Below, one piece after another: positions 29,016 through 41,678 of a DNA stretch of 44,583 nucleotides. This stretch comes from Chitinivibrio alkaliphilus ACht1 (GTDB taxonomy: Bacteria > Fibrobacterota > Chitinivibrionia > Chitinivibrionales > Chitinivibrionaceae): positions 1-44,583 of the forward strand of contig NZ_ASJR01000018.1 of the NCBI RefSeq assembly GCF_000474745.1. The letters run 5' to 3'. The position numbers and the translations under genes are program-made. The notes under the pieces were generated by a model that saw nothing but the letters and a program-made list of their open reading frames with translations, made no database searches and was not told the origin of the DNA. Each line of letters starts with the position of its first letter. Within the stretch, counting starts at the first letter, position 1.

Positions 29016-32000
29016 ATGTTGGAAAAAACAAAAGGGATGATCCGACGTTTTTTTCCACACTACTATGCTTTTTTTTCCGTCGGGCTTCTCTTTTGTGCCC
29101 TGTTTTATTTGCTCTATGTTGCCGCATTGTATCAAGCGGCCTTTGCAGGGGGAATCCTTCTTGTACTTCTTATGTTCTATGTACACATTCCCGATATCGA
29201 TTCTCAGCATGGAGTACAGCCTTTTTTGTTGAGTACCCCGGCTGTGGTAATTGGTTTGCTTGTCTATTCGTTCCTTGGAGTACAGCCGGGGCTTACCCCC
29301 TTCTTTCTCCTTCATACACCCCTGACCCTTCTTCTGGTTGTGATTTACTTTTTGTTTTACGAGAAGTATATCTGTGCTTTGGCCCTGTCTCTCTCGCCCC
29401 TTGTTATGCTCCCGATTCATATCGGGGCAGGAATAGATCTTTCCCTCTATGGCGGTCTTGGCCTGCTTATTATTGCCTGCAGCGGTATTGCCTTTGGGTT
29501 TAAAGAGCATTTGCAGGAACATTCCCGTAGTAGAGGCAAGGCGTTTATTCACTCCTTTTTCGACCACCTGTGGACGCGATACTCACACATTCCCTATCTT
29601 CAGGGAAGAAAAATACCGGGACTTGCTTTTTTTAGCCGTGATGGAGGGTTGTTATACTGTAATGAAGAATATGCGGCTGTGCTTCACGGTGGGCAGGATC
29701 GAAGCTCCTTGTACGGGAAATATAATCTCTTCGATGATCCCAATTTTACCGAGTATCCCATGGCTTCTTTCTTTTCCGGGGCCCCTCTTTCCATACGCGG
29801 TATGTACGATACTCGAAAAAGCACAGCCTCCGTCATGTCTCCACATCGTATCTACCTTGAGTCTGATTTTTCCAGTGTGGAGATTTCCGGATATGGGGAT
29901 TGCCTCATGCAAGTGGTGGTTACGGGGACGGAACTGGCGGACCCACTCTTTTTGGATGATCAGGAGGTTTCCCGACGAGTGCAGCTGCTGTTGCATAATA
30001 ATTTTAGCCAGCTCTGGTATTTGTCTGATCCGGGCACCATTGGGTTTGCCAATTATGCCTTTGCTGAGTTTTATAATCTTTCTCTCAGAGATGTGGTTGA
30101 TATGCCGGTTCGGCAGGTTTTCTCAGAGAAAGATAGTCCTGAAGAGCGTCGGGAGAATCAAGAGGTGTTTTCCCTGCGACGCCAGATTTTACGAGAGGTA
30201 CGGCGAAAAGATGCCTGTGGTAATGAGGTCGTCTTGCGGGTGATAAAAACGCCGAAACTGGATATTAATGGGGTGGTGGAGTCGGTTATGTGTGAAGCCA
30301 CAGATATTACCGATCTCTACGATGAAAAGTTGAATCTCAGCAGAGAAAATAGTTCCTTGGCACGAGAGACAGAACGCGCACGTGCCCTGAGTACCGCCAA
30401 GAGCCATTTTGTTGCGAATATGAGTCACGAACTTCGCACTCCTCTTAATGGGGTTATTGGAATGTCGGAGTTACTCCTTGATACCCCTCTTTCTCCCGAA
30501 CAGCAACAGTTTTCCCGTATAATTTATAAAAGTTCGAAGCATCTTCTCACCGTAATTAACGATGTCCTTGACTTTTCACGCATAGAAGAAGGGAAGATGA
30601 AAATTGTTCCGGTACATACCGACCCCTGTGAGTGTATATATGCTGCTCTTGAAGTGATTGAACATCGTCTGTATGAAAAGGGACTCTCTCTTTTTGTACA
30701 CGAATCATCTCTCTGGGGATGTCAGCTCATATTGGATGACCTTCGATGTAAGCAGGTAATAATTAATCTGCTTGATAATGCTATAAAATTCACACGGGAA
30801 GGTGCAGTGTGGCTCTCTGTTTCCGTGGAAACCTGTCAAACCGGTGGCACCGTCTTATCGGTGTCCGTGCGGGATACGGGGGTTGGAATTGCCCCTGAAC
30901 AACAGGAGAGTCTTCTTGATGCCTTTACGCAGGGTGATGATTCCGTGACGCGTAAATTTGGCGGCACCGGGTTGGGGTTGGCTATTTGTCGTCGCCTCAT
31001 AGAACTTATGGGGGGAGAGCTTCAGTTTTCCAGTGAAGAGCATGTCGGCACGGAGTTCTATTTTTCCATTCCTGTGAAAGTTGTCGATCCGCCGGTTGTC
31101 TTTCCTCAGATGAAAGGGGCTTTTGTGTATTTGGGTGACGATTCGTATCGCTCAGCCTTTTTTCAAGACTGCTGTGCCACCCTGCACCTCCCTTATCATA
31201 TGTGTCGATCTCTTGATGAGCTATACGATCTCCGAGAGAAACATACCGCGGTTTGTTTTTATGACCCTGGGAAAGCCTCTCTCATAGATAAGCTGAAACA
31301 GCGGTATGCCTGCGAGGCGGAAGAGTCTCTACCTTTTGTTCCCTGTACCTCCCTCATTACCTTCGATGCGGTTTATAGCTCAATACAGAAGCAAGTCTCT
31401 GGAACATTCTCTCCTGCCGAGAGTACCTCTTCTGTCACCGAGCCTGTACGCCCACCTTCTCTTTTATGGCGGGTGTTGCTTATTGAGGATAATGGGGTGA
31501 ATCAAAAAGTACTTGTTTCGCTTTTGGATAAGTGTGGTGTGCAGGATGTGACCAGCGCAGAGACAGGAGAGGCGGCGCGCACGCTTCTGTTTCAAGAGAG
31601 GTATGACCTAGTTTTTGTAGATTGGATCCTCCCCGATATTAGCGGTATTGCCGTGGTCCGCCATCTTCGCTCACAGCCGGGAGAAAATACAGATGTCCCT
31701 GTGGTCGCCTTAACAGCCCGGAGTGAAACAGCGCATAAAGAGACTGCCTTTGCTGCAGGGGTGGACCGCTATATTACCAAGCCGGTGCAGTATGCAGATA
31801 TTGTTGCGGTTATTGAATGGGCCATGACGGCCACGAAAAAGAACGCCCCTTCTCTGCAGGAGTGTTCCATATATAATGAGGCGCTTCTTCTTGAAAATTT
31901 ACAGGGAGATCGCGAAGTGTTGCATACCTTACTTACCGAATGTGTTCGTCGAATGCCTGCGGCGTGTCGGCGTATGCAAGAATGCCTTGCTGATACGGCA

Positions 32001-32567
32001 TACGAAACAATTGGCGAGATTGCGCATTCCCTGCGAGGTATGGCCATGAATATCTCAGCAGATCGCTTTGCTGCTCACGCAAAAGCTGTGGAAGAGAGTG
32101 TGAATCGTCAGCAGTACCCTGCTGTAAAAGACCTGTGTGAGCGTTTATTTGCTTCTGAAAAAGAATTACGCGCAGCCCTTACCTGCGCCATAGATTCCCC
32201 TTCACCCCCTTCTCAGGAGGATTTTATGCAGTCAGATATATTAAATGTGGATGATATTCTTGATAACCTTATGAATGATTATGATATCTTGCGTGATATC
32301 TTAGAAGAATTTCTAAACTCCATCCCGGGCTTGGTAACCGCCTTGGAAGAGGGGGTCCGTGCCGGTAATATGCAGGTTGTTGATGACATGGCACACTCAA
32401 TAAAGGGTGCAGCCAGAAATATCGGGGCGGAGCGCTTGGGCGATGTGTCTTATGAATTGGAAAAATGTGGTAAAAACGGGTGTGGTGCTAAGATAGAGGG
32501 GTTGTTTGCTACATTACGCGAGGAGTACGCCCTTCTTGAGAAAGAAATTCATAAAATCATCGGGTAG
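29016..32567 (+). CDS. Membrane hybrid histidine kinase with receiver and two Hpt domains
   Basis: This 1183-residue phosphorelay protein has about six N-terminal helices (residues 14-165), a PAS-like sensor (about 325-440), then HisKA ([20 protein letters not shown], His471) and HATPase ([37 protein letters not shown]). A degenerate receiver-like region (about 695-795) lacks an acceptor Asp. An intact receiver follows: [25 protein letters not shown] (Asp869), VVALTAR, ITKPVQ. Two Hpt domains end the protein: [14 protein letters not shown] (His1004) and [14 protein letters not shown] (His1127). It thus carries His-Asp-His-His and should phosphorylate a separate response regulator, none of which is in the window. 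The sensed signal is unknown. It shares architecture through the intact receiver with the kinase at 10196-12541. Confidence 0.93.
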
Positions 32568-32643
32568 TTTTGTATTGCCCGTGAAAAAAAATTATCTTTT
32601 AAGGAACTGCTCTGTTTAAACATCACCGGAAGGCAGGATTTGT

Positions 32644-33468
32644 ATGGGTTGGTTAGAAGGGTTTACCAAAGGTCATAAAATAGATGAAACGATATGGATG
32701 GAGTGCAAAGCCTGCAATAAGCATATCCTGCGAGAAGAGTGGGAAAAGGGCTATCATGTATGTCCGAAATGTACCCATCATGCGCGTATTGACTCTCGAT
32801 ATCGATTAGAAATAACTGTAGATCCCGATACCTTTGAAGAGATGGATGCCTCTATTCATCCGGCAGATCCGCTCTCGTTCCATGATAAAAAAGGAAGCTA
32901 TGCTGATAAGGCAGAGGCTGCACGGGAGAAGTCGGGCCTCAACGAATCCATTGTGACGGGGCGCGCGAAGATTATGGAGCATCCCGTAGTTGTGGGTGTC
33001 ATGGATTTTCGCTTTCTCGGCGGAAGCCTCTCATCGGGAACAGGGGAAAAAATCGTCCGTGCTGCCCATGTTGCACTGGATGAACGAAAACCCCTCATCC
33101 TCTTTTCTGCGTCAGGGGGAGCCCGCATGCATGAAGGGATTTTGTCCCTCATGCAGATGGCAAAAACCTGTGGCGCTATTGCTCAGCTTGATGAAGAGAA
33201 TATTTCCTATATTTCAGTTCTTACGGATCCCACCACCGGAGGGGTTTCTGCTTCTTATGCAATGGTGGGAGATATTAATATTGCTGAGCCGGGAGCGTTG
33301 ATCGGTTTTGCAGGCAAACGGGTCATCAAGGAAACCTTAAAACAGAAGCTTCCTGAGGACTTCCAAACGTCCGAATATTACCGTGACCACGGATTTCTTG
33401 ATCGTGTGGTGCATCGTAAGGATATGCGTACAACCCTGGGCGATATATTGTCGTTCTACAACCGATAA
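32644..33468 (+). CDS. accD: Acetyl-CoA carboxylase carboxyltransferase subunit beta
   Basis: AccD and AccA form the carboxyltransferase that moves CO2 from carboxybiotin to acetyl-CoA. The 274-residue protein has the N-terminal zinc ribbon (Cys21, Cys24, Cys40, Cys43 in ECKACNKH and HVCPKCTHH), then the crotonase fold: VVVGVMDFRFLGGSLSSGTG, FSASGGARMHEGILSLMQMA, VLTDPTTGGVSASYAMVGD and GFAGKRVIKETL. Length is typical. AGGAT upstream supports ATG 32644. It is first in a tight accD-accA-carboxyltransferase/BCCP operon, 12 nt before accA. Confidence 0.97.
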   Translation: MGWLEGFTKGHKIDETIWMECKACNKHILREEWEKGYHVCPKCTHHARIDSRYRLEITVDPDTFEEMDASIHPADPLSFHDKKGSYADKAEAAREKSGLNESIVTGRAKIMEHPVVVGVMDFRFLGGSLSSGTGEKIVRAAHVALDERKPLILFSASGGARMHEGILSLMQMAKTCGAIAQLDEENISYISVLTDPTTGGVSASYAMVGDINIAEPGALIGFAGKRVIKETLKQKLPEDFQTSEYYRDHGFLDRVVHRKDMRTTLGDILSFYNR

Positions 33469-33480
33469 CTGGGTGGACAC

Positions 33481-34434
33481 ATGACGAATAAAAAAGATTA
33501 TCAATCATCAATTGCAGATATGGAGAAAGCTTTGCAGGAAACACGCGAGATGGCCGAAAAGCATGGCGGTGTGTTTCATCAGCAAGCCGAAGATATTGCA
33601 GCGGAGCTCCAGCGTGAGAAGGAGGCGTGGGCGAATGAATTTACCGCGTGGGATATTGTGCAGGTATCTCGTAACCCCAAACGGCCCAATTTCCATGAGT
33701 ACGCAACGGAGGTCTTCACTGACTTCTTAGAGCTGAAAGGAGATCGGGTGTTCTCGGATGATCAGGCTATTGCTGGCGGGTTTGCTCGATTACAGGGAAA
33801 GCCGGTGATGCTTATTGGGCATAATAAGGGACGAACCATCACGGAGAATGTGGAGCGTAACTTTGGGAGTGCCTATCCAGACGGATATCGAAAGGCGCTT
33901 CGTCTTATGAAGCTGGCTGATAAGTTTAATGTCCCTATTATTACCTTGATTGACACAGCGGGAGCCTACCCCGGTGTAGAGGCGGAAGAGCGGGGGCAGG
34001 CAGAGGCAATTGCGCGCAATTTAGTAGAGATGATGGAGTTGCGTGTTCCTGTTATTTCTGTTGTGACCGGCGAGGGAGGAAGCGGTGGTGCACTTGGTAT
34101 TGGCGTGGGAAACCGTGTCCTCATGCTTTCGAAGGCAACATACTCTGTCATTTCTCCGGAAGGATGCGCCGGTATTTTATGGCGTGATGGTGCATATGCG
34201 GATACTGCTGCCGAGGCACTCTGTCTTACTGCGCCGCATCTTTTGAAATTTAAAGTGATTGATGCTATTATCGATGAACCCCTCATGGGTGCGCATACAG
34301 ATCCGCAACAAACAATGAAAAATGTCGGTGAAACCCTCGTGAGGGAATTGGATGCACTCTCGGGAAAAGATGGTGAGACTCTGAAAAAAGAGCGGATTGA
34401 ACGGTTTTCTCAGATAGGATTTTTTAAAGAATAA
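33481..34434 (+). CDS. accA: Acetyl-CoA carboxylase carboxyltransferase subunit alpha
   Basis: AccA is the partner of AccD. The 317-residue protein has a helical N-terminus, then WDIVQVSRNPKRPNFHEYA, GDRVFSDDQAIAGGFARLQG, LIGHNKGRTITENVERNFG, PIITLIDTAGAYPGVEAEER, VVTGEGGSGGALGIGVGNRV (oxyanion Gly-Gly pairs) and YSVISPEGCAGILWRD. All are standard. It lies 12 nt after accD and 11 nt before the fusion gene, so co-translation and complex formation with both neighbours are likely. Confidence 0.97.
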   Translation: MTNKKDYQSSIADMEKALQETREMAEKHGGVFHQQAEDIAAELQREKEAWANEFTAWDIVQVSRNPKRPNFHEYATEVFTDFLELKGDRVFSDDQAIAGGFARLQGKPVMLIGHNKGRTITENVERNFGSAYPDGYRKALRLMKLADKFNVPIITLIDTAGAYPGVEAEERGQAEAIARNLVEMMELRVPVISVVTGEGGSGGALGIGVGNRVLMLSKATYSVISPEGCAGILWRDGAYADTAAEALCLTAPHLLKFKVIDAIIDEPLMGAHTDPQQTMKNVGETLVRELDALSGKDGETLKKERIERFSQIGFFKE

Positions 34435-34445
34435 AGGTGTATACC

Positions 34446-36404
34446 ATGACAACTTTTAGTAACTTACAAGAAGATGCGTTGCATAAAATTCCCTTGCGTA
34501 TAACAGATACGACGCTTCGGGATGCGCATCAGTCTTTGTGGGCAACACGGATGAGAACAGAGGATATCCTCAATATAATTGATGTAATTGACAATGTCGG
34601 CTACTACTCCCTTGAAATGTGGGGAGGGGCAACCTTTGATGTCTGTATGCGCTTTCTCCGGGAAAACCCTTGGGAACGCCTCCGTGCGATAAAAAAACGG
34701 GCGCAAAATACCCCATTGCAGATGCTTCTGCGCGGGCAGAATCTTGTAGGGTATAAAAATTATTCCGATGATGTAGTAGACAAATTTGTTAATCTTGCCG
34801 TGAAAAACGGTATTGATATTTTTAGGTGTTTTGATGCGCTCAATGATACGCGAAATCTTGAAGCTTCTATAAAAGCAGTAAAAAAATATGGGGCGCATGC
34901 CCAAGGTACCCTCGCCTATACAATTTCACCGGCTCATACGGAAGAGCTCTATGTTGCTGCGGCAAAAGAGCAGGTTCAGTTGGGGGTGGATTCTCTGTGT
35001 ATCAAAGATATGGCGGGTATTCTTTCACCCTTACGTGCAGAGCGCCTTGTCTCTGCTCTTATTAAAGAAATTGATGTGCCAATTCAGATACACTCTCATG
35101 CCACAAGCGGCATGGCAACTCCGGCCTATGTAGAAGGGGTTCGTGCGGGGGCCGGCGCTATTGACTGCGCTATTTCTCCCATGGCTGGGTTTACGGCACA
35201 GCCGCCTGTGGAAACTCTCGTGGCTATCTTTTCTGAAACGAACTACTCCACTGGTCTCGATCTGGATGCCCTAGCAGAGGTTGCTGGATATTTTAATACA
35301 TTACGCGATCAGCGCGAGGTTGAAGCGGGGGCACGAAAATCAATTATTGATCCGAATATCCTAATTCATCAAATTCCTGGTGGGATGATTTCGAACTTTC
35401 GATCGCAGCTTTCGAAACAGGGCGCCTTGGATAAACTTGATGATGCCCTTGAGGAAGTAACCCGTGTTCGGAAAGATTTGGGGTATCCTCCCTTAGTAAC
35501 GCCCACAAGCCAGATTGTTGGAACCCAGGCTGTAATGAATGTCATTGCCGGAGAACGCTATGCCGTTGTCCCCAACGAAGTAAAAGAGTATGTCCGGGGC
35601 AAGTATGGACGTCCACCGGCGCCAATGAGCCCTGAGTTTATTGCACAAATTTTGGGTGATGGAACGCCCATCGATCATCGTCCAGCCGATGATATCGAGC
35701 CCATGCTTCCCACGGTGACGGATGAGCTAGATCCTTCGTATGTACGGGATGACGAAGATATCCTTTCGTACACAATTTTTCCGGAAGTTGCTCTGGAGTA
35801 CTTTTCGTGGCGAAGCCTACCTGAGGCAGAACGTCCGCCCATTCCTGCTGACTTGGAGTACGCTGAGGCCACTAAGGCAAATCAATCAGATGCAGCGCAG
35901 GAAACAGTCGCCCCGCAGGAAGGGGGTATCTCTCCTGCACAACAGGTTCATGAGAATGATTATCAGGGGATTGGGTATATCGTAAGTCAAAGCTCAGGGC
36001 TTCAACTGGATGAACTGACCATTACCAAGGGAGATTTCTCTCTTTCTCTACGAGCAAAGGGGGCACAGCCTGCAGCAGCAACGCCTCAGGTGGCTTCGGT
36101 TCAGCCAAAGCAGGCAGATGCACCTGCAGAACCATCTGCTCCTTCGCCAACATCCTCAGTAGAGGCCTATGAAGATCCTGTGCGGTCTCCTTTGACAGGC
36201 ACCTTTTATACTTCATCCGCTCCTGATAAACCTGATTTTGTACAGGTTGGTGATGTTGTACAGGAGGGAGATGTGGTATGTATTGTAGAAGCAATGAAGC
36301 TCTTTAATGAAATAACTGCTCCCAAATCCGGGACAGTTCAGGCAATTTTTGTCTCCAATGGTGATGCCGTTGAAAAAGATGCCCCCCTGTTGGCAATAGA
36401 GTAA
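34446..36404 (+). CDS. Oxaloacetate/pyruvate carboxyltransferase fused to an AccB-type biotin carrier
   Basis: This 652-residue protein starts at ATG 34446, with AAAGG upstream. Residues about 15-300 are a DRE-TIM carboxyltransferase as in OadA, PycB and transcarboxylase 5S: ITDTTLRDAHQSLWATRM, CFDALNDTRN, SLCIKDMAG with the carbamylated Lys187, and IHSHATSGMA with metal ligands His216 and His218. A PYC/OADA conserved domain runs to about 450. Residues about 505-535 (LQLDELTITKGDFSLSLRAK) match the N-terminal segment of AccB, a Pro/Ala linker follows, then an AccB-style biotinyl domain with the AccB thumb (VRSPLTGTFYTSSAPDKPDF) and CIVEAMKLFNEI (biotin on Lys618). The BCCP half is therefore AccB-like, not the short OadA type. 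Directly after accD-accA it is likely the biotin carrier of acetyl-CoA carboxylase and may also charge it from oxaloacetate. A classical oxaloacetate decarboxylase subunit is the alternative. Confidence 0.9.
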   Translation: MTTFSNLQEDALHKIPLRITDTTLRDAHQSLWATRMRTEDILNIIDVIDNVGYYSLEMWGGATFDVCMRFLRENPWERLRAIKKRAQNTPLQMLLRGQNLVGYKNYSDDVVDKFVNLAVKNGIDIFRCFDALNDTRNLEASIKAVKKYGAHAQGTLAYTISPAHTEELYVAAAKEQVQLGVDSLCIKDMAGILSPLRAERLVSALIKEIDVPIQIHSHATSGMATPAYVEGVRAGAGAIDCAISPMAGFTAQPPVETLVAIFSETNYSTGLDLDALAEVAGYFNTLRDQREVEAGARKSIIDPNILIHQIPGGMISNFRSQLSKQGALDKLDDALEEVTRVRKDLGYPPLVTPTSQIVGTQAVMNVIAGERYAVVPNEVKEYVRGKYGRPPAPMSPEFIAQILGDGTPIDHRPADDIEPMLPTVTDELDPSYVRDDEDILSYTIFPEVALEYFSWRSLPEAERPPIPADLEYAEATKANQSDAAQETVAPQEGGISPAQQVHENDYQGIGYIVSQSSGLQLDELTITKGDFSLSLRAKGAQPAAATPQVASVQPKQADAPAEPSAPSPTSSVEAYEDPVRSPLTGTFYTSSAPDKPDFVQVGDVVQEGDVVCIVEAMKLFNEITAPKSGTVQAIFVSNGDAVEKDAPLLAIE

Positions 36405-36466
36405 TAACAACGTGTCCTCTTATAGATTGTGGGGGGACATATTTTTTGAAAAATGAGGAGAGTAGT

Positions 36467-36798: not shown

Positions 36799-37716
36799 AT
36801 GATCCCCTGGATAAATAGTGATGTTCCTCAAATCAGTAAGGCTGTTCTCCATGAGATAGGCCGTGGCCAGCATATTGATGTGAGTGACGGCCTTAACATG
36901 GCGGGCCGGAAGGATATTTATGATATTCACGACGGCTTGCTGTCTATTTTTTTTCCCGGGGTCTGGAGCCGTGAGTGCATTGAGAAAGGAGATGTAGATT
37001 TCTATATCACATGCTCATTGCGCCGTATTTCTCATAAGTTGGTGCATATTGTTCGGGATATGCTATTGCACCATTCCCGATGTAATGAAGGGCAGGAAGA
37101 AGAGGCTGATAGATGTTATGAACGTGCCTCACAGCTGTGTCGCCAGTTTATTGCAGCTTTACCACAGATTCGTCGGGTCTTGGTCTCGGATATCGAAACA
37201 GCCTATAGCGGAGACCCGGCTGCGGTATCTCGTGACGAAATATTGCTGAGCTATCCCTTCGTTGAAGCCGTCGCGACCTATCGTCTTGCCCATGAGTTGT
37301 ATGAGCTTAAAATTCCCATTGTGCCACGAATATTAAGTGAACGTGCCCATAGTAATACGGGTATTGATATTCATCCCGGCGCGCAAATCGGGGATGGTTT
37401 CTTCATAGACCACGGAACCGGCGTTGTTATTGGAGAGACCTGTCGTATTGGAAAGAATGTTAAAATTTACCAGGGGGTAACCCTGGGAGCGACTTCTCCC
37501 TTTGATGAATCAGGCACACCACGGCGTGGTGTGAAGCGCCATCCTGATGTTGGAGACAATGTTATTATCTATGCCAATGCAGTTATCCTCGGGGGAGACA
37601 CGGTCATTGGGGAAAATTCAATCATCGGTGGTAATGCTTGGGTAACAGAACCGGTGCCGCCGAATTCAGTTGTTTTTGAACGTAATAAAACAGAGATGCG
37701 CCAGCGACGGTATTAA
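36799..37716 (+). CDS. cysE: Serine O-acetyltransferase
   Basis: CysE acetylates serine for cysteine synthesis. The 305-residue protein has a helical N-terminal domain (about 1-185), then the left-handed beta-helix: IDIHPGAQIGDGFFIDHGTG (catalytic Asp-His), VVIGETCRIGKNVKIYQGVT, LGATSP, KRHPDVGDNVIIYANAVILG and GNAWVTEPVPPNSVV. The N-terminus is longer than in E. coli CysE and resembles the EpsC-type group. AAGGAG lies upstream. Its stop codon shares TTAA with the convergent dnaA stop (4-nt overlap). No cysK is in the window. Confidence 0.95.
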   Translation: MIPWINSDVPQISKAVLHEIGRGQHIDVSDGLNMAGRKDIYDIHDGLLSIFFPGVWSRECIEKGDVDFYITCSLRRISHKLVHIVRDMLLHHSRCNEGQEEEADRCYERASQLCRQFIAALPQIRRVLVSDIETAYSGDPAAVSRDEILLSYPFVEAVATYRLAHELYELKIPIVPRILSERAHSNTGIDIHPGAQIGDGFFIDHGTGVVIGETCRIGKNVKIYQGVTLGATSPFDESGTPRRGVKRHPDVGDNVIIYANAVILGGDTVIGENSIIGGNAWVTEPVPPNSVVFERNKTEMRQRRY

Positions 37717-39101
37717 GCTTGTCGTGCTCGTCTAATAATGGTATCTACCCGCTGGGCAAAGGGTGTATCCTGTTCCATTTTTGCACCAACCGTTTTCACC
37801 GCGTGAACAACCGTGCTGTGATCACGTCCTCCGAATTCAGTTCCGATAGCTTTCAGGGATAAGTCCGTGTGTTCTTTGCAGAGAAACATTCCGATTTGTC
37901 GGGCCTGAGCAACTTCTTTACTCCGGCTTTTGCTGGTGAGAAGCTGTCGCGAAATACCAAATTCATCCGTAATTGCGGTAATAATATCAATGGCCCGTAT
38001 TTTTCCTGGAGTAATACCGTCATTATAGAGAATCTCCGCAGCGGTGGTGCTGTTAATGGGTTTGTTTCCTAGAGAGTAGTGTGCTGCAACCCGGACGGAA
38101 ATTCCTTCCAGATCGCCAATACTGCGGGGGCCTTTTTGCGCAAGATAGTGAATTGCTTCATGGGAAATTTGCACTGACTCATTTTCAAGCAGGGTTCGAA
38201 GAATTGCACTTCGAGTTTCCAATTGGGGTGCATCGATATGTACGGAAAGCCCCCACTGTAGCCGTGTAAGAAGGCGATCGGCGATTCCCGAAAGTGCTTC
38301 GGGAGGGCACGGTGCTGCAAAAACCATTTGCCGGTTTTGGGTGTGAAGATCATTGAAAATCTTAAATACCTCTGTTTGACTCGACTCTTTTCCCGACAGG
38401 GTGTGAATATCATCCATAAACAGAACATCACAGGTTGTATAATGCTTTTTGAACTCATCCATGGTTTTTTCGTTTAAGGAGGAGAAAAAATCATGATAAA
38501 ATTCCTTGGCTGAGGTAAATACAATGCGGAGATTTGGTCGTTCCTGTTGAATGGTATTTGCCATGGCATGCAACAGATGTGTCTTTCCCACCCCACATTC
38601 ACCATAAATAAAGAGCGGGTTGAACCGGCGTGCACCGGGATTTTCCGCAACGGCTTTTGCAGAGTGATAGGCGAGGTCCGTCTCCTCTGCCTCAATAAAG
38701 GAGGCAAAGGTTAATTTTGTATTGATAGGGAGGCCCTTTTTATTCCACTCTTTTTTCTTTCTATCTTTCTTGCTGTGCTTTTTCTGAGAATCGACTCTGT
38801 TTGTTGCAGCATGGTCCGGTTGAAGTTCTTCGGCACGTGGAGGGGCCGCGTTCTCTTCAATGGTAAAACCAAGGGCTTCAATATTCGGATCTATCTGTTG
38901 CGCATGGTGAAGGACTATCTTGCGGTATTGCGTGTTGAGTACTTCTAAACCAAAGGGGTTATCTGTCTTTAACAGGAGTACTCCCTGCGCATATGAAAGG
39001 GGGTGTAATGGCTCAAGCCAGTTCGTATAACTAATCTCCCGAACAGATAAATCTTCTTTTAGCCTTGCAAGTGTTTTTGTCCAGAGTATATTTTTGTCCA
39101 C
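37713..39101 (-). CDS. dnaA: Chromosomal replication initiator protein DnaA
   Basis: DnaA binds oriC and melts it in an ATP-dependent way. The 462-residue protein has domain I (about 1-85), a Lys-rich linker (SQKKHSKKDRKKKEWNKKG), an AAA+ core with FNPLFIYGECGVGKTHLLHA (Walker A), CDVLFMDDIHTL (Walker B) and ADRLLTRLQWGLSV (sensor/Arg-finger region), and the C-terminal DnaA-box reader ending in FGGRDHSTVVHAVKTV. Length is normal. It starts at GTG 39101. It is divergent from rpmH, as in many bacteria, but dnaN is not next to it here. No cluster of TTATCCACA boxes is seen in the 153-nt intergenic gap. Confidence 0.97.
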   Translation of the reverse strand: MDKNILWTKTLARLKEDLSVREISYTNWLEPLHPLSYAQGVLLLKTDNPFGLEVLNTQYRKIVLHHAQQIDPNIEALGFTIEENAAPPRAEELQPDHAATNRVDSQKKHSKKDRKKKEWNKKGLPINTKLTFASFIEAEETDLAYHSAKAVAENPGARRFNPLFIYGECGVGKTHLLHAMANTIQQERPNLRIVFTSAKEFYHDFFSSLNEKTMDEFKKHYTTCDVLFMDDIHTLSGKESSQTEVFKIFNDLHTQNRQMVFAAPCPPEALSGIADRLLTRLQWGLSVHIDAPQLETRSAILRTLLENESVQISHEAIHYLAQKGPRSIGDLEGISVRVAAHYSLGNKPINSTTAAEILYNDGITPGKIRAIDIITAITDEFGISRQLLTSKSRSKEVAQARQIGMFLCKEHTDLSLKAIGTEFGGRDHSTVVHAVKTVGAKMEQDTPFAQRVDTIIRRARQA

Positions 39102-39254
39102 CTTAAGGTACCATCCTTGCTGTCGTAAGTCGTACTCGTCTTCTTTAGAATATGTATTATTTGAAAGATGATTGACAAAGGGTTGGGGAAATAATCATTT
39201 TTAGGTGCCTTTGATGAACAGTGAAAATGTACTTGAATAGTTCAGGAGATAGAC
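39102..39254. promoter_or_regulatory. Divergent dnaA / rpmH promoter region
   Basis: This AT-rich 153-nt gap should hold promoters for both genes. TTGACA at 39172-39177 on the plus strand is a consensus -35 with a weak TCATTT at -10 spacing. No DnaA-box cluster is visible, so I do not call it oriC. Confidence 0.4.
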
Positions 39255-39392
39255 ATGAAAAGAACGTTTCAGCCTTCCAATCGGAAGAAGATTAATAAAC
39301 ACGGTTTTAGATCACGCATGGCTACTAAAAACGGGCGTAAAGTATTAAAACGGCGACGTGCCAAGGGGCGGAAGCGTTTATCCGTTTCTTAG
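39255..39392 (+). CDS. rpmH: 50S ribosomal protein L34
   Basis: This 45-residue protein begins [20 protein letters not shown] and ends [20 protein letters not shown] plus SVS, the invariant L34 pattern. AGGAGA lies 6 nt before the ATG. It heads the conserved rpmH-rnpA-yidD-yidC operon and is divergent from dnaA. Its stop codon overlaps a possible GTG start of rnpA (TAGTG). Confidence 0.98.
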
Positions 39393-39729
39393 TGGACGTG
39401 AATTCCCTTAAAAAAAATTTGTTCTTAAAAAGCAGAGAGATATCACAGCTATTTTGTCTCAGGGAGATAGATGGCGTTGTGATATCTTTGCGCTTATATA
39501 TCGGGAAAATAGAATTGGCGTAAATCGCCATGCCGTCCTGGTGTCACGTAAGAATGGCCCCGCTGTTGAACGGGTTCGTATTAAACGGATATATCGTGAA
39601 GTGTATAAAAATAGCTCCCTTATTCCATCTGCGGGAATTGATATATTGATTCGTCCATTCTACGGAGTACATCACGAGTATGCGCGTGCCCTTCGACGAT
39701 TTGAGGCATGGTGTGAGACAGTGGGGTAA
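39392..39729 (+). CDS. rnpA: Ribonuclease P protein component, frameshifted at a poly-A tract
   Basis: RnpA assists RNase P RNA in tRNA 5' maturation. Position between rpmH and yidD, and the sequence (KKQRDITAILSQGDRWRCD, NRHAVLVSRKNGPAVERVRI, KRIYREVYKN) identify it; the last part matches the RNR-like signature (NR-KR--RE). The homologous frame has no start codon of its own upstream except TTG 39454: it hits TAA just before the A tract. The GTG starts at 39392 and 39398 give VNSLKK and then leave frame at A8 (39410-39417). With nine A, GTG 39398 reads VNSLKKKFVLKKQRDITAIL continuously, giving 110 residues, a normal length. The gene is essential in most bacteria, so a true loss is unlikely. 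Confidence 0.85.
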
Positions 39730-39964
39730 AGATATTCTTGCGGCAGTGCTCTATGCAGTAATTCAAGCAGGAAAAACAATCTTCTTGCTTGATCGAGGGG
39801 TATGTCGATTTACTCCCAGCTGCAGTGTCTACGCGCGTGACGCCGTGAAAACCCTTCCCCTGCATCGTGCAATGCTACAGATTATACAACGGCTTATCCG
39901 GTGTCGTCCCGGCGGAGGATTCGGGTATGATCCGGTTCAAACGAATGAGGTTGAAAATGAATAG
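39680..39964 (+). CDS. yidD: Membrane protein insertion efficiency factor YidD
   Basis: YidD is a small amphipathic inner-membrane-associated protein linked to YidC. The C-terminal half shows the family signature CRFTPSCSVYARDAVKTLPL followed by RLIRCRPGGGFGYDPV. ATG 39680 overlaps rnpA by 50 nt. GTG 39713 (VRQWGKDILAAVLYAVIQAG) with GAGG 6 nt upstream gives a size closer to the family and is a good alternative. The stop overlaps the yidC start as ATGAATAG. Confidence 0.92.
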   Translation: MRVPFDDLRHGVRQWGKDILAAVLYAVIQAGKTIFLLDRGVCRFTPSCSVYARDAVKTLPLHRAMLQIIQRLIRCRPGGGFGYDPVQTNEVENE

Positions 39965-41678
39965 ACAGACTCTTTTTGGTGTTCTTTTAGTTGTGGGAGC
40001 ACTCTCCTTTCTCAATTCCCCCATGTGGTACAATCTGTTGGGATACAAGCATCCCAGCCAAGTGACGTCTGAAGAGAGTACTTCTTCGGTGGTGCAGGAA
40101 ATGCCTGTAGAATCTTCGGAGACAGTCGTGGAACAATCATCAGAAAAAGAGCCTGAAGAGGAAATCTCTTCCCTGGCCCAGGCTGAGGAAAAGATAGCCT
40201 CTCCCGAAGAGCGGGATCCGGACACAATTGCTATATCCAATGGGGTATTGGATCTTGCCTTCAGTGAGAAGGGCGCACGTATTATTTCTGCCCATGCTCT
40301 GGAGTATGAGTATCGTGATGATATGCCTTCTTCCGGTGTGGTCAGTCTTATAGACACAGCGCGAGGCGGCATTGGGGCTCTCCGCATCGGGGGGGCGGAT
40401 ACGGACAGCCTTCTGTTTTCCTATGATACTGCGGCCAGTACAGAAACGCACGCGGTGTTTCGTGCTCCCTATGAGGATTCAGAGTTGGTGAAAACGTACC
40501 ATATTCCCGAAAACTCCTATTATATAGAATTGTCCGTAGAGTCTCGGGCCCTTGCGGGCAATAATGTGGCTCTTCGCTTTGACTCCGGCATGAATGAGCC
40601 GGAAGATCCTGATAATATGAGTACTCGGTTGGTGCCACGGGAGTATTTTCTTTCGGATAGTCGCGGGAATATTTCTGTTGAAAAAGAGCGACGGGAGACA
40701 CAACAGGAATTTTCCGGTATGTATCGCTGGGTTGGAACAAAATCGAAGTATTTTGCGGCAGCGGTAATATATCCTGAAGAAAAAAATCTCATTGTTACGG
40801 CCCAGTCCTATGCGGTGGACCCTTCCTTGGCAGTTGATGGAAATAATATCAACTACTCCCTTACTGTTGAGTCGGGCATTGACGATATCTCCCATGAGTA
40901 CACACTCTTTTTAGGACCGGCTCAGGTTGATCTATTGCGCGAAGCCGGTGTTGGTTTGGATCGTATGGTCTTTCGTGGGTGGTCTTTCCTCTGGTTGGAT
41001 ACCATATTTCCGGCCCTGTGTAATTTTGTCTTAGCGGTGATGACAGCAGTATACTCAGTACTTGGTGATTATGGCTTGGGGATTCTTGCCATAACTATTT
41101 TGATGAAACTCATCACCTTTCCTCTCACGCAGAGCAGCTTAAAGTCTATGAAGCAAATGAAGGAGATTCAGCCGAAGATCCGGGAAATACAGAAAAAGTA
41201 CAAAAAGGATCCGCAGGTAATGCAGGCTAAAATGATGGAGTTTTATCAAAAAGAAGGGGTGAGTCCCCTGGCTGGTCTTGGGGGATGTCTTCCCATGTTT
41301 ATTCAGATGCCTATTATGCTCTCGTTGTTTGTGGTGCCCCGGAAGGCCATTGAGCTGCGGGGTGAGCAGACGCTTCTTGTTCCATGGGCAGCAGATTTAT
41401 CTCAGCCGGAAGTGCTCTTTTCTCTGCCCATGACGCTTCCGCTCTATGGCGGGCACGTTTCCCTCCTGCCTATTCTGGCAGCCTTGCTCATGTTTTTTCA
41501 AAACAAAGATACCATCACTGATCCACAGCAAAAGTCGATGATGTATATCATGCCTTTCTTTATGGCGGTGATGTTTAATAATTTTCCCGCCGGCTTAACC
41601 CTCTACTTCCTATTCTCAACCATATTTCAGCTTCTTCAGCAGAAACTTGTAAACAGAAGTGCTGCGCCGACAGCGTAG
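39957..41678 (+). CDS. yidC: Membrane protein insertase YidC
   Basis: YidC inserts and folds inner-membrane proteins, alone or with Sec. The 573-residue protein starts MNRQTLFGVLLVVGALSFLN (first helix) at ATG 39957, coupled to yidD. A Glu/Ser-rich linker and large periplasmic beta domain (about 75-350) are typical of Gram-negative YidC. The conserved C-terminal insertase core has LGILAITILMKLITFPLTQ, MKQMKEIQPKIREIQKKYKK, GVSPLAGLGGCLPMFIQMPI and MYIMPFFMAVMFNNFPAGLT. It is the last gene of the operon, followed by a strong terminator. Confidence 0.97.
   Translation: MNRQTLFGVLLVVGALSFLNSPMWYNLLGYKHPSQVTSEESTSSVVQEMPVESSETVVEQSSEKEPEEEISSLAQAEEKIASPEERDPDTIAISNGVLDLAFSEKGARIISAHALEYEYRDDMPSSGVVSLIDTARGGIGALRIGGADTDSLLFSYDTAASTETHAVFRAPYEDSELVKTYHIPENSYYIELSVESRALAGNNVALRFDSGMNEPEDPDNMSTRLVPREYFLSDSRGNISVEKERRETQQEFSGMYRWVGTKSKYFAAAVIYPEEKNLIVTAQSYAVDPSLAVDGNNINYSLTVESGIDDISHEYTLFLGPAQVDLLREAGVGLDRMVFRGWSFLWLDTIFPALCNFVLAVMTAVYSVLGDYGLGILAITILMKLITFPLTQSSLKSMKQMKEIQPKIREIQKKYKKDPQVMQAKMMEFYQKEGVSPLAGLGGCLPMFIQMPIMLSLFVVPRKAIELRGEQTLLVPWAADLSQPEVLFSLPMTLPLYGGHVSLLPILAALLMFFQNKDTITDPQQKSMMYIMPFFMAVMFNNFPAGLTLYFLFSTIFQLLQQKLVNRSAAPTA

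Follow-up and report, generated by a model that had tools for sequence, protein, structure and literature searches.

The accD–accA–CT::AccB operon of Chitinivibrio alkaliphilus ACht1 very likely encodes an oxaloacetate:acetyl-CoA transcarboxylase, which would be the organism's source of malonyl-CoA and in which AccDA would take the place of the 12S component of propionibacterial transcarboxylase. The operon, in which a carboxyltransferase (CT) is fused to the biotin carrier AccB, lies in the window analysed here, a stretch of 44,583 nt (NZ_ASJR01000018.1, positions 1 to 44,583), for which an initial annotation had put forward this hypothesis.

Organization of the operon

ORF and hairpin analysis of the window revealed a compact operon on the + strand, comprising accD (32644..33468; 274 aa), accA (33481..34434; 317 aa) and the fusion gene (34446..36404; 652 aa counted from the ATG), with a terminator-like hairpin followed by a T tail at its 3′ end (36412..36440, + strand; 13 pairs). 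The hairpin likely marks the end of the operon, although this evidence is indicative only, with 6 hairpins found in the region as against 4.5 expected by chance. The three ORFs lie where the initial annotation had placed them, and the intergenic distances that it gave, 12 and 11 nt, are correct if ATG 34446, preceded by AAGG, is taken as the start of the fusion; an in-frame GTG at 34437 is an alternative start that would add 3 aa. A scan of the window for DnaA boxes gave matches at chance level only.

AccD contains a Cys4 zinc ribbon, exceeds the cut-off of the equivalog model TIGR00515 (363 bits, cut-off 317) and matches the AccD chains of 8uxz and 2f9y in the PDB. AccA passes both TIGR00513 (385 bits, cut-off 319) and PRK05724 and matches 8uxz, 2f9i and 2f9y. 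The two proteins are the β and α subunits, respectively, of the acyl-CoA carboxyltransferase, and together they would represent the 12S equivalent of the proposed enzyme.

The CT::AccB fusion protein

The fusion consists of a CT (HMGL-like and PYC_OADA domains) followed by a Biotin_lipoyl domain; its predicted structure has a mean pLDDT of 84, and it scores well above the cut-off of the PycB domain model PRK09282 (786 bits, cut-off 402). The DRE-TIM carboxyltransferase with PYC_OADA, of the 5S/OadA/PycB kind, spans 34494..35894 (+ strand; residues ~17–483) and matches the fold of 5S (1rqb/1rqh) with a TM score of 0.89 by target. Its metal ligands are D26, K187, H216 and H218, and all the OadA/5S/PycB catalytic residues that were checked are present. 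K187, H216 and H218 are invariant across the 44 sequences compared, along with the metal-binding Asp and the biotinyl Lys. The substrate residues R25, R96 and Y103 are invariant too. The initial annotation had thus correctly identified Lys187, His216 and His218, in a numbering that starts from the ATG (K190, H219 and H221 from the GTG).

The AccB-like BCCP (36003..36401, + strand; residues ~520–652) comprises the N-terminal AccB region, the thumb (~589–596) and the biotinyl Lys618 (EAMKLFN), in an invariant AMK motif. Residues 523–655 pass the AccB equivalog model TIGR00531 (120.8 bits, cut-off 115.2), and the best PDB match of this part is E. coli AccB (4hr7). In an alignment with E. coli AccB and 1.3S as biotin-domain controls, the thumb was observed in 39 of 39 members of the fusion family and was not seen in 1.3S, in the compared conventional PycB and OadA proteins, or in OadA2, the second biotin protein of the genome. 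The score and the alignment together bear out the earlier description of the carrier as AccB-like and thumb-bearing.

Biotin carboxylase and biotin carriers in the genome

The assembly is a 99-contig draft of 2.59 Mb, 96.65% complete, and the gene absences reported here rest on profile searches. No biotin carboxylase was detected in it: nothing exceeded the cut-off for Biotin_carb_C, and the TIGR00514 search returned solely CarB-type and other weak ATP-grasp matches. Of 14 control genomes, 13 gave a hit in the same search, and so did 8 genomes from the order to which C. alkaliphilus belongs. Nor did the genome yield a PycA, the partner biotin carboxylase of two-subunit pyruvate carboxylase, or a second AccB, its only two biotin carriers being the fusion and OadA2. 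A missed second AccB was rejected, the remaining weak biotin/lipoyl matches being a GcvH-like and an RnfC-like protein. As judged from this gene content, the transcarboxylase hypothesis survived its main test, in that neither a biotin carboxylase nor another AccB was detected in the genome.

A conventional oadG–oadB–oadA operon, encoding a Na+ pump with its own alpha subunit OadA2, is present on another contig (C25), and no OadB or OadG was found among the ORFs around the accD–accA–fusion operon. The fusion as alpha subunit of the Na+ pump was rejected on account of this separate operon, which leaves the fusion available for another role. Of the combination that the initial annotation had regarded as refuting its hypothesis, the separate accB–accC pair is absent, in favour of the hypothesis, whereas the conventional oadB/oadG setting does exist. 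FabD and PEP carboxylase are both encoded in the genome.

Distribution of the fusion

All 26 genomes of the order that are at least 90% complete carry the fusion, and biotin carboxylase is missing from 20 of them. In an order of Kiritimatiellae, the fusion occurs in 17 of 19 genomes and biotin carboxylase is missing from 16 of 19; the enzyme is likewise missing from 8 of 9 further fusion-bearing genomes. An assembly gap is an unlikely cause of the missing carboxylase, since 20 good genomes of the order also lack it (the product of their incompleteness is ~3e-29 if they are treated as independent, which they are not). The gene accA lies immediately upstream of the fusion at 26 of 30 loci of the order and at all 17 loci of the Kiritimatiellae order, while accDA does not adjoin the fusion in two genomes of one genus. 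The conservation that the initial annotation had suggested surveying is thus strong and extends over two bacterial groups. In the tree, the fusions form one clade with a support of 100 and a long stem.

FabD exceeded its cut-off in all 15 genomes tested, every one devoid of biotin carboxylase, implying that malonyl-CoA is needed there. PEP carboxylase was not found in several members of the order, and pyruvate carboxylase and PEP carboxykinase have been reported absent from Chitinispirillum (PMC4814513). Biotin carboxylase was found in 8 fusion-bearing genomes of the order, and the three that were scored reached 668–712 bits on TIGR00514; no AccB lay near it where the neighbourhood was read. 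The enzyme is evidently compatible with the fusion in these 8 genomes, where the role of the latter may be different.

Discussion

In the proposed mechanism, the CT half of the fusion would remove the carboxyl group of oxaloacetate, with release of pyruvate, and load it onto the biotin that its own AccB domain is expected to carry. The carboxylated AccB would then swing to AccDA, in a complex that the three proteins may form, and AccDA would pass the carboxyl group to acetyl-CoA. The net reaction, in the direction we favour, would be oxaloacetate + acetyl-CoA → pyruvate + malonyl-CoA, the enzyme itself requiring neither biotin carboxylase nor ATP. Oxaloacetate could be supplied by PEP carboxylase, and the cost of carboxylation is then PEP, so that no energy is saved overall. 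The earlier formula 'without AccC or ATP' consequently stands as regards AccC, which the genome lacks, but freedom from ATP does not extend beyond the step itself. Counting against the proposal are the draft state of the assembly, the 8 fusion-bearing relatives that have AccC, the members of the order without PEP carboxylase and the two genomes in which accDA lies apart from the fusion.

The fusion could instead belong to a two-subunit pyruvate carboxylase as its beta subunit, with a carrier that it shares with AccDA and that an ATP-dependent biotin carboxylase loads. CT::BCCP proteins adjoining AccC or PycA are indeed common elsewhere, thumb-bearing CT::AccB proteins lie beside AccC in Clostridia and Actinomycetota, and the explanation is perhaps correct for the 8 genomes of the order that possess a biotin carboxylase. 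It is nevertheless unlikely for C. alkaliphilus, because the enzyme is missing here as well as in 20 of the 26 good genomes of its order and 16 of the 19 of the Kiritimatiellae order. The milder reading of the initial annotation, a carrier shared with AccC, is disfavoured here by the lack of AccC and may hold in the 8 AccC-bearing relatives. Alternatively, an unrelated or very diverged enzyme might carboxylate biotin with ATP, the operon then encoding an ordinary ACC that bears one additional domain. Replacement by a non-orthologous enzyme is conceivable in any such case, and the genome encodes several ATP-grasp proteins; these, however, score like CarB or other ligases that are not biotin carboxylases and lack the Biotin_carb_C domain. 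This very improbable scenario would also leave unexplained why every member has AccB joined to an oxaloacetate CT that is complete and fully conserved.

The presence of OadB and OadG in the same genome, together with the description of related soda-lake genera as having sodium instead of proton pumps, raises the prospect of a reversed Na+ pump, in which OadB would use the Na+ gradient to carboxylate the biotin of the fusion and thus drive ACC. We give this hardly any credence, since OadB is located elsewhere with its own OadA2 carrier and there would be no need for the conserved oxaloacetate CT. Equally slight is the probability that the fusion is the alpha subunit of an oxaloacetate decarboxylase that adjoins accDA by chance. 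Its similarity to OadA is strong (49% identity to 2nx9, with a TM score of 0.94 by target), yet it falls below the cut-off of the OadA equivalog TIGR01108 (709.6 vs 756.5 bits), a dedicated oadGBA operon exists, the carrier is a thumb-bearing AccB in a genome with no other AccB, and adjacency to accA has been kept in two bacterial groups.

The proposed transcarboxylase resembles the propionibacterial enzyme (EC 2.1.3.1; 12S/5S/1.3S) in linking two carboxyltransferases by a biotin carrier without a biotin carboxylase, and the CT half of the fusion is structurally equivalent to 5S. It differs in that the acyl-CoA half is AccDA rather than 12S, the carrier is a thumb-bearing AccB, not 1.3S, and is fused to the 5S-like part, and the proposed acceptor is acetyl-CoA instead of methylmalonyl/propionyl-CoA. 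As in the heteromeric AccABCD of bacteria, AccD, AccA and a thumb-bearing AccB are recognised by equivalog models, but AccC is lacking and AccB forms one chain with an oxaloacetate carboxyltransferase. PycB, the beta subunit of two-subunit pyruvate carboxylase (e.g. 5ks8), has the same order of CT and BCCP and 39% identity over the chain; the fusion departs from it in the AccB thumb, the absence of PycA and the linkage to accDA. The CT::AccB loci of Clostridia and Actinomycetota (L085–L087, L089 and L094) carry a thumb-bearing AccB on the same kind of CT and form the sister clade of the fusions, with weak support (80), but there AccC adjoins and accDA does not; these systems are probably ATP-dependent. 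Giardia has a fused ACC-CT/BCCP/PC-CT protein (Jordan et al. 2003, as cited in PMC8700996 and PMC3199775), which likewise brings together an acyl-CoA CT, a biotin carrier and a pyruvate/oxaloacetate CT. It is a single eukaryotic chain of ~1338 aa, unlike the three bacterial proteins, of which only CT and AccB are fused; the bacterial trio, moreover, has AccD, AccA and AccB of the heteromeric type.

No bacterial precedent for such a transcarboxylase was found in the open-access literature searched. For the Giardia protein, Jordan and colleagues reportedly proposed transcarboxylation to malonyl-CoA in 2003. AccC is regarded as an antibiotic target that is essential to bacteria and almost universal among them. 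Both orders have probably abandoned the ATP-dependent carboxylation of biotin and draw practically all their malonyl-CoA from AccD–AccA–CT::AccB transcarboxylation with oxaloacetate, fatty-acid synthesis being tied directly to the PEP/oxaloacetate node. Genome annotation would silently label the trio as ACC and subunit B of pyruvate carboxylase. If our proposal is correct, inhibitors of biotin carboxylase should leave these bacteria unaffected, and the trio would give metabolic engineers a ready-made module for producing malonyl-CoA without ATP. Two bacterial groups would then obtain malonyl-CoA by another reaction, governed by oxaloacetate and not by ATP and bicarbonate, and whole lineages would perform in another way a step that textbooks treat as essential to bacterial metabolism.

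RESULTS

The three genes lie on the plus strand: accD (32644–33468) and accA (33481–34434), each recognized by its equivalog model and by a PDB match, are followed by the fusion gene (34446, or 34437, to 36404), with intergenic gaps of 12 and 11 nt, respectively. A terminator-like hairpin (36412–36440) lies 3′ of the fusion. A large hybrid histidine kinase ORF (29016–32567) ends 77 nt 5′ of accD, and a consensus scan found no plus-strand promoter-like site in between (32567–32644). About 1–5 kb from the operon (37713–41678), a minus-strand dnaA-like ORF stands opposite plus-strand rnpA/yidD/yidC-like ORFs, a layout typical of origin regions; no cluster of consensus DnaA boxes was found in the window.

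The N-terminal part of the fusion is a carboxyltransferase (CT) of the OadA/5S/PycB type (HMGL-like and PYC_OADA domains), and its C-terminal 133 residues score over the cut-off of the AccB equivalog TIGR00531, on which the biotin domain of the genome's second biotin protein reaches only 32 bits. Lys187, His216 and His218, singled out in the initial annotation, are correct in ATG numbering and invariant among aligned relatives, as are Arg25, Asp26, Arg96, Tyr103 and Lys618. The AccB thumb occurs in 39 of 39 fusion-family members and in none of the conventional PycB/OadA carriers compared. Structural matches of the fusion's predicted model, whose mean pLDDT is 84, are the two-subunit pyruvate carboxylase beta chain, OadA and 5S; low-confidence linkers precede the biotin domain, as would be expected of a swinging carrier.

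Profile searches of the source genome (2.59 Mb, 99 contigs, 96.65% complete) retrieved no Biotin_carb_C domain over the cut-off, and TIGR00514 hit nothing but ATP-grasp proteins, CarB-type ones and others that match weakly. There are only two biotin carriers, the fusion and OadA2; two weaker biotin/lipoyl matches were rejected as further carriers, being GcvH-like and RnfC-like by sequence. Since FabD is present, malonyl-CoA must be made. The initial annotation had envisaged its synthesis without AccC or, more mildly, a carrier shared between AccC-driven carboxylation and oxaloacetate decarboxylation. Neither accC nor a second accB was found, and oadB and oadG did turn up, in a separate oadG–oadB–oadA operon on contig 25, so that the Na+ pump has no need of the fusion. 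PEP carboxylase is present as a source of oxaloacetate. Among control genomes, only that of Thermotoga maritima lacks Biotin_carb_C; FabD is over the cut-off there.

Within the organism's order, 38 of 40 genomes (source genome counted) encode the full-length fusion; completeness reaches 90% or more in 26, all of which encode it, and 20 of these lack any biotin carboxylase. That the gene order is kept among relatives was borne out, accA lying directly 5′ of the fusion, usually with accD ahead of it, in 26 of the 30 loci read; in one genus accDA is located away from the fusion. Eight genomes of the order possess AccC. The f2/f6 type clusters in our tree with a Kiritimatiellae-order sequence and a second type, from two genera of f4, is placed elsewhere, so that they do not represent a single shared retention. 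At L056, L057 and L058 (G022, G025, G028), an AccC-like gene has no AccB nearby, and the gene after it is Sua5/YrdC-like (~313 aa, threonylcarbamoyl-AMP synthase family; domain checked in L056 only). No full-length fusion was found in three more distant, AccC-keeping families of the phylum (f9–f11), where AccB and AccC are separate adjoining genes at both loci whose surroundings were inspected.

Outside this order, scanning of public genomes turned up the accD–accA–fusion trio in records from Kiritimatiellae and related ones; other Kiritimatiellae, Lentisphaerae and Verrucomicrobia records contain the fusion with no accDA adjoining it. In a second order, the Kiritimatiellae order to which one fusion-bearing genome of the scan belongs, the fusion occurs in 17 of 19 genomes, biotin carboxylase is missing in 16 of 19, and accA lies directly 5′ of the fusion in all 17 loci. 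Eight of nine fusion-bearing genomes from the scan, one probably of the source organism's own order, lack biotin carboxylase, which is present in 4/4 AccC-bearing or oad control genomes of the same comparison. The only positive among the nine, a MAG labelled Bacteroidales (L080/G065), holds the trio and two biotin carboxylases, possibly through mis-binning or as a real exception.

DISCUSSION

We propose from these sequence data that the trio acts as an oxaloacetate:acetyl-CoA transcarboxylase; activity, complex and biotinylation are all predicted. The fused biotin would receive a carboxyl group from oxaloacetate via the CT, with release of pyruvate, and the AccB domain would then visit AccDA, where acetyl-CoA would be carboxylated. 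Propionibacterial transcarboxylase follows the same logic, with AccDA here in place of 12S and AccB of 1.3S. Transcarboxylation from oxaloacetate to malonyl-CoA should run near equilibrium. It would not be free, because PEP replaces ATP when, as the source genome would allow, PEP carboxylase forms oxaloacetate from PEP and bicarbonate. Some relatives lack PEP carboxylase; the paper on Chitinispirillum (PMC4814513) records no pyruvate carboxylase and no PEP carboxykinase in that genus.

We found no bacterial accD–accA–CT::AccB operon described in the open-access literature searched. In Giardia, a protein is described that combines CTs of the acetyl-CoA and pyruvate types with a biotin carrier (PMC8700996, citing Jordan et al. 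2003). Lombard and Moreira (2011; PMC3199775) noted groups that lack an ACC-type biotin carboxylase, no replacement being proposed in the sections concerned.

Family f8 of the same phylum lacks AccA equivalogs and the fusion, and most of its genomes lack any biotin carboxylase; FabD is present in both genomes tested. Its genomes (loci L065 in G057, L067/L068 in G048 and L075 in G045) encode a ~517-aa 12S/MmdA-like CT, adjoining a 1.3S-like biotin carrier and OadB in G057 and G045, and, separately, a ~534-aa 5S-like CT without biotin domain. This gene set may represent another transcarboxylase route to malonyl-CoA, distinct from that of the trio.

The fusions of both bacterial groups, the source order and Kiritimatiellae, form one fully supported clade with a long stem. 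Its weakly supported sister (80) comprises thumb-bearing CT::AccB proteins of Clostridia and Actinomycetota whose genes adjoin AccC; at L085, L086, L087, L089 and L094 they lie immediately 5′ of AccC, with no accDA nearby, and possibly provide one carrier for pyruvate carboxylase and ACC. A plausible path is that AccB joined an oxaloacetate/pyruvate CT at a time when AccC was still present, and that loading of AccB from oxaloacetate by the CT would later have made AccC dispensable.
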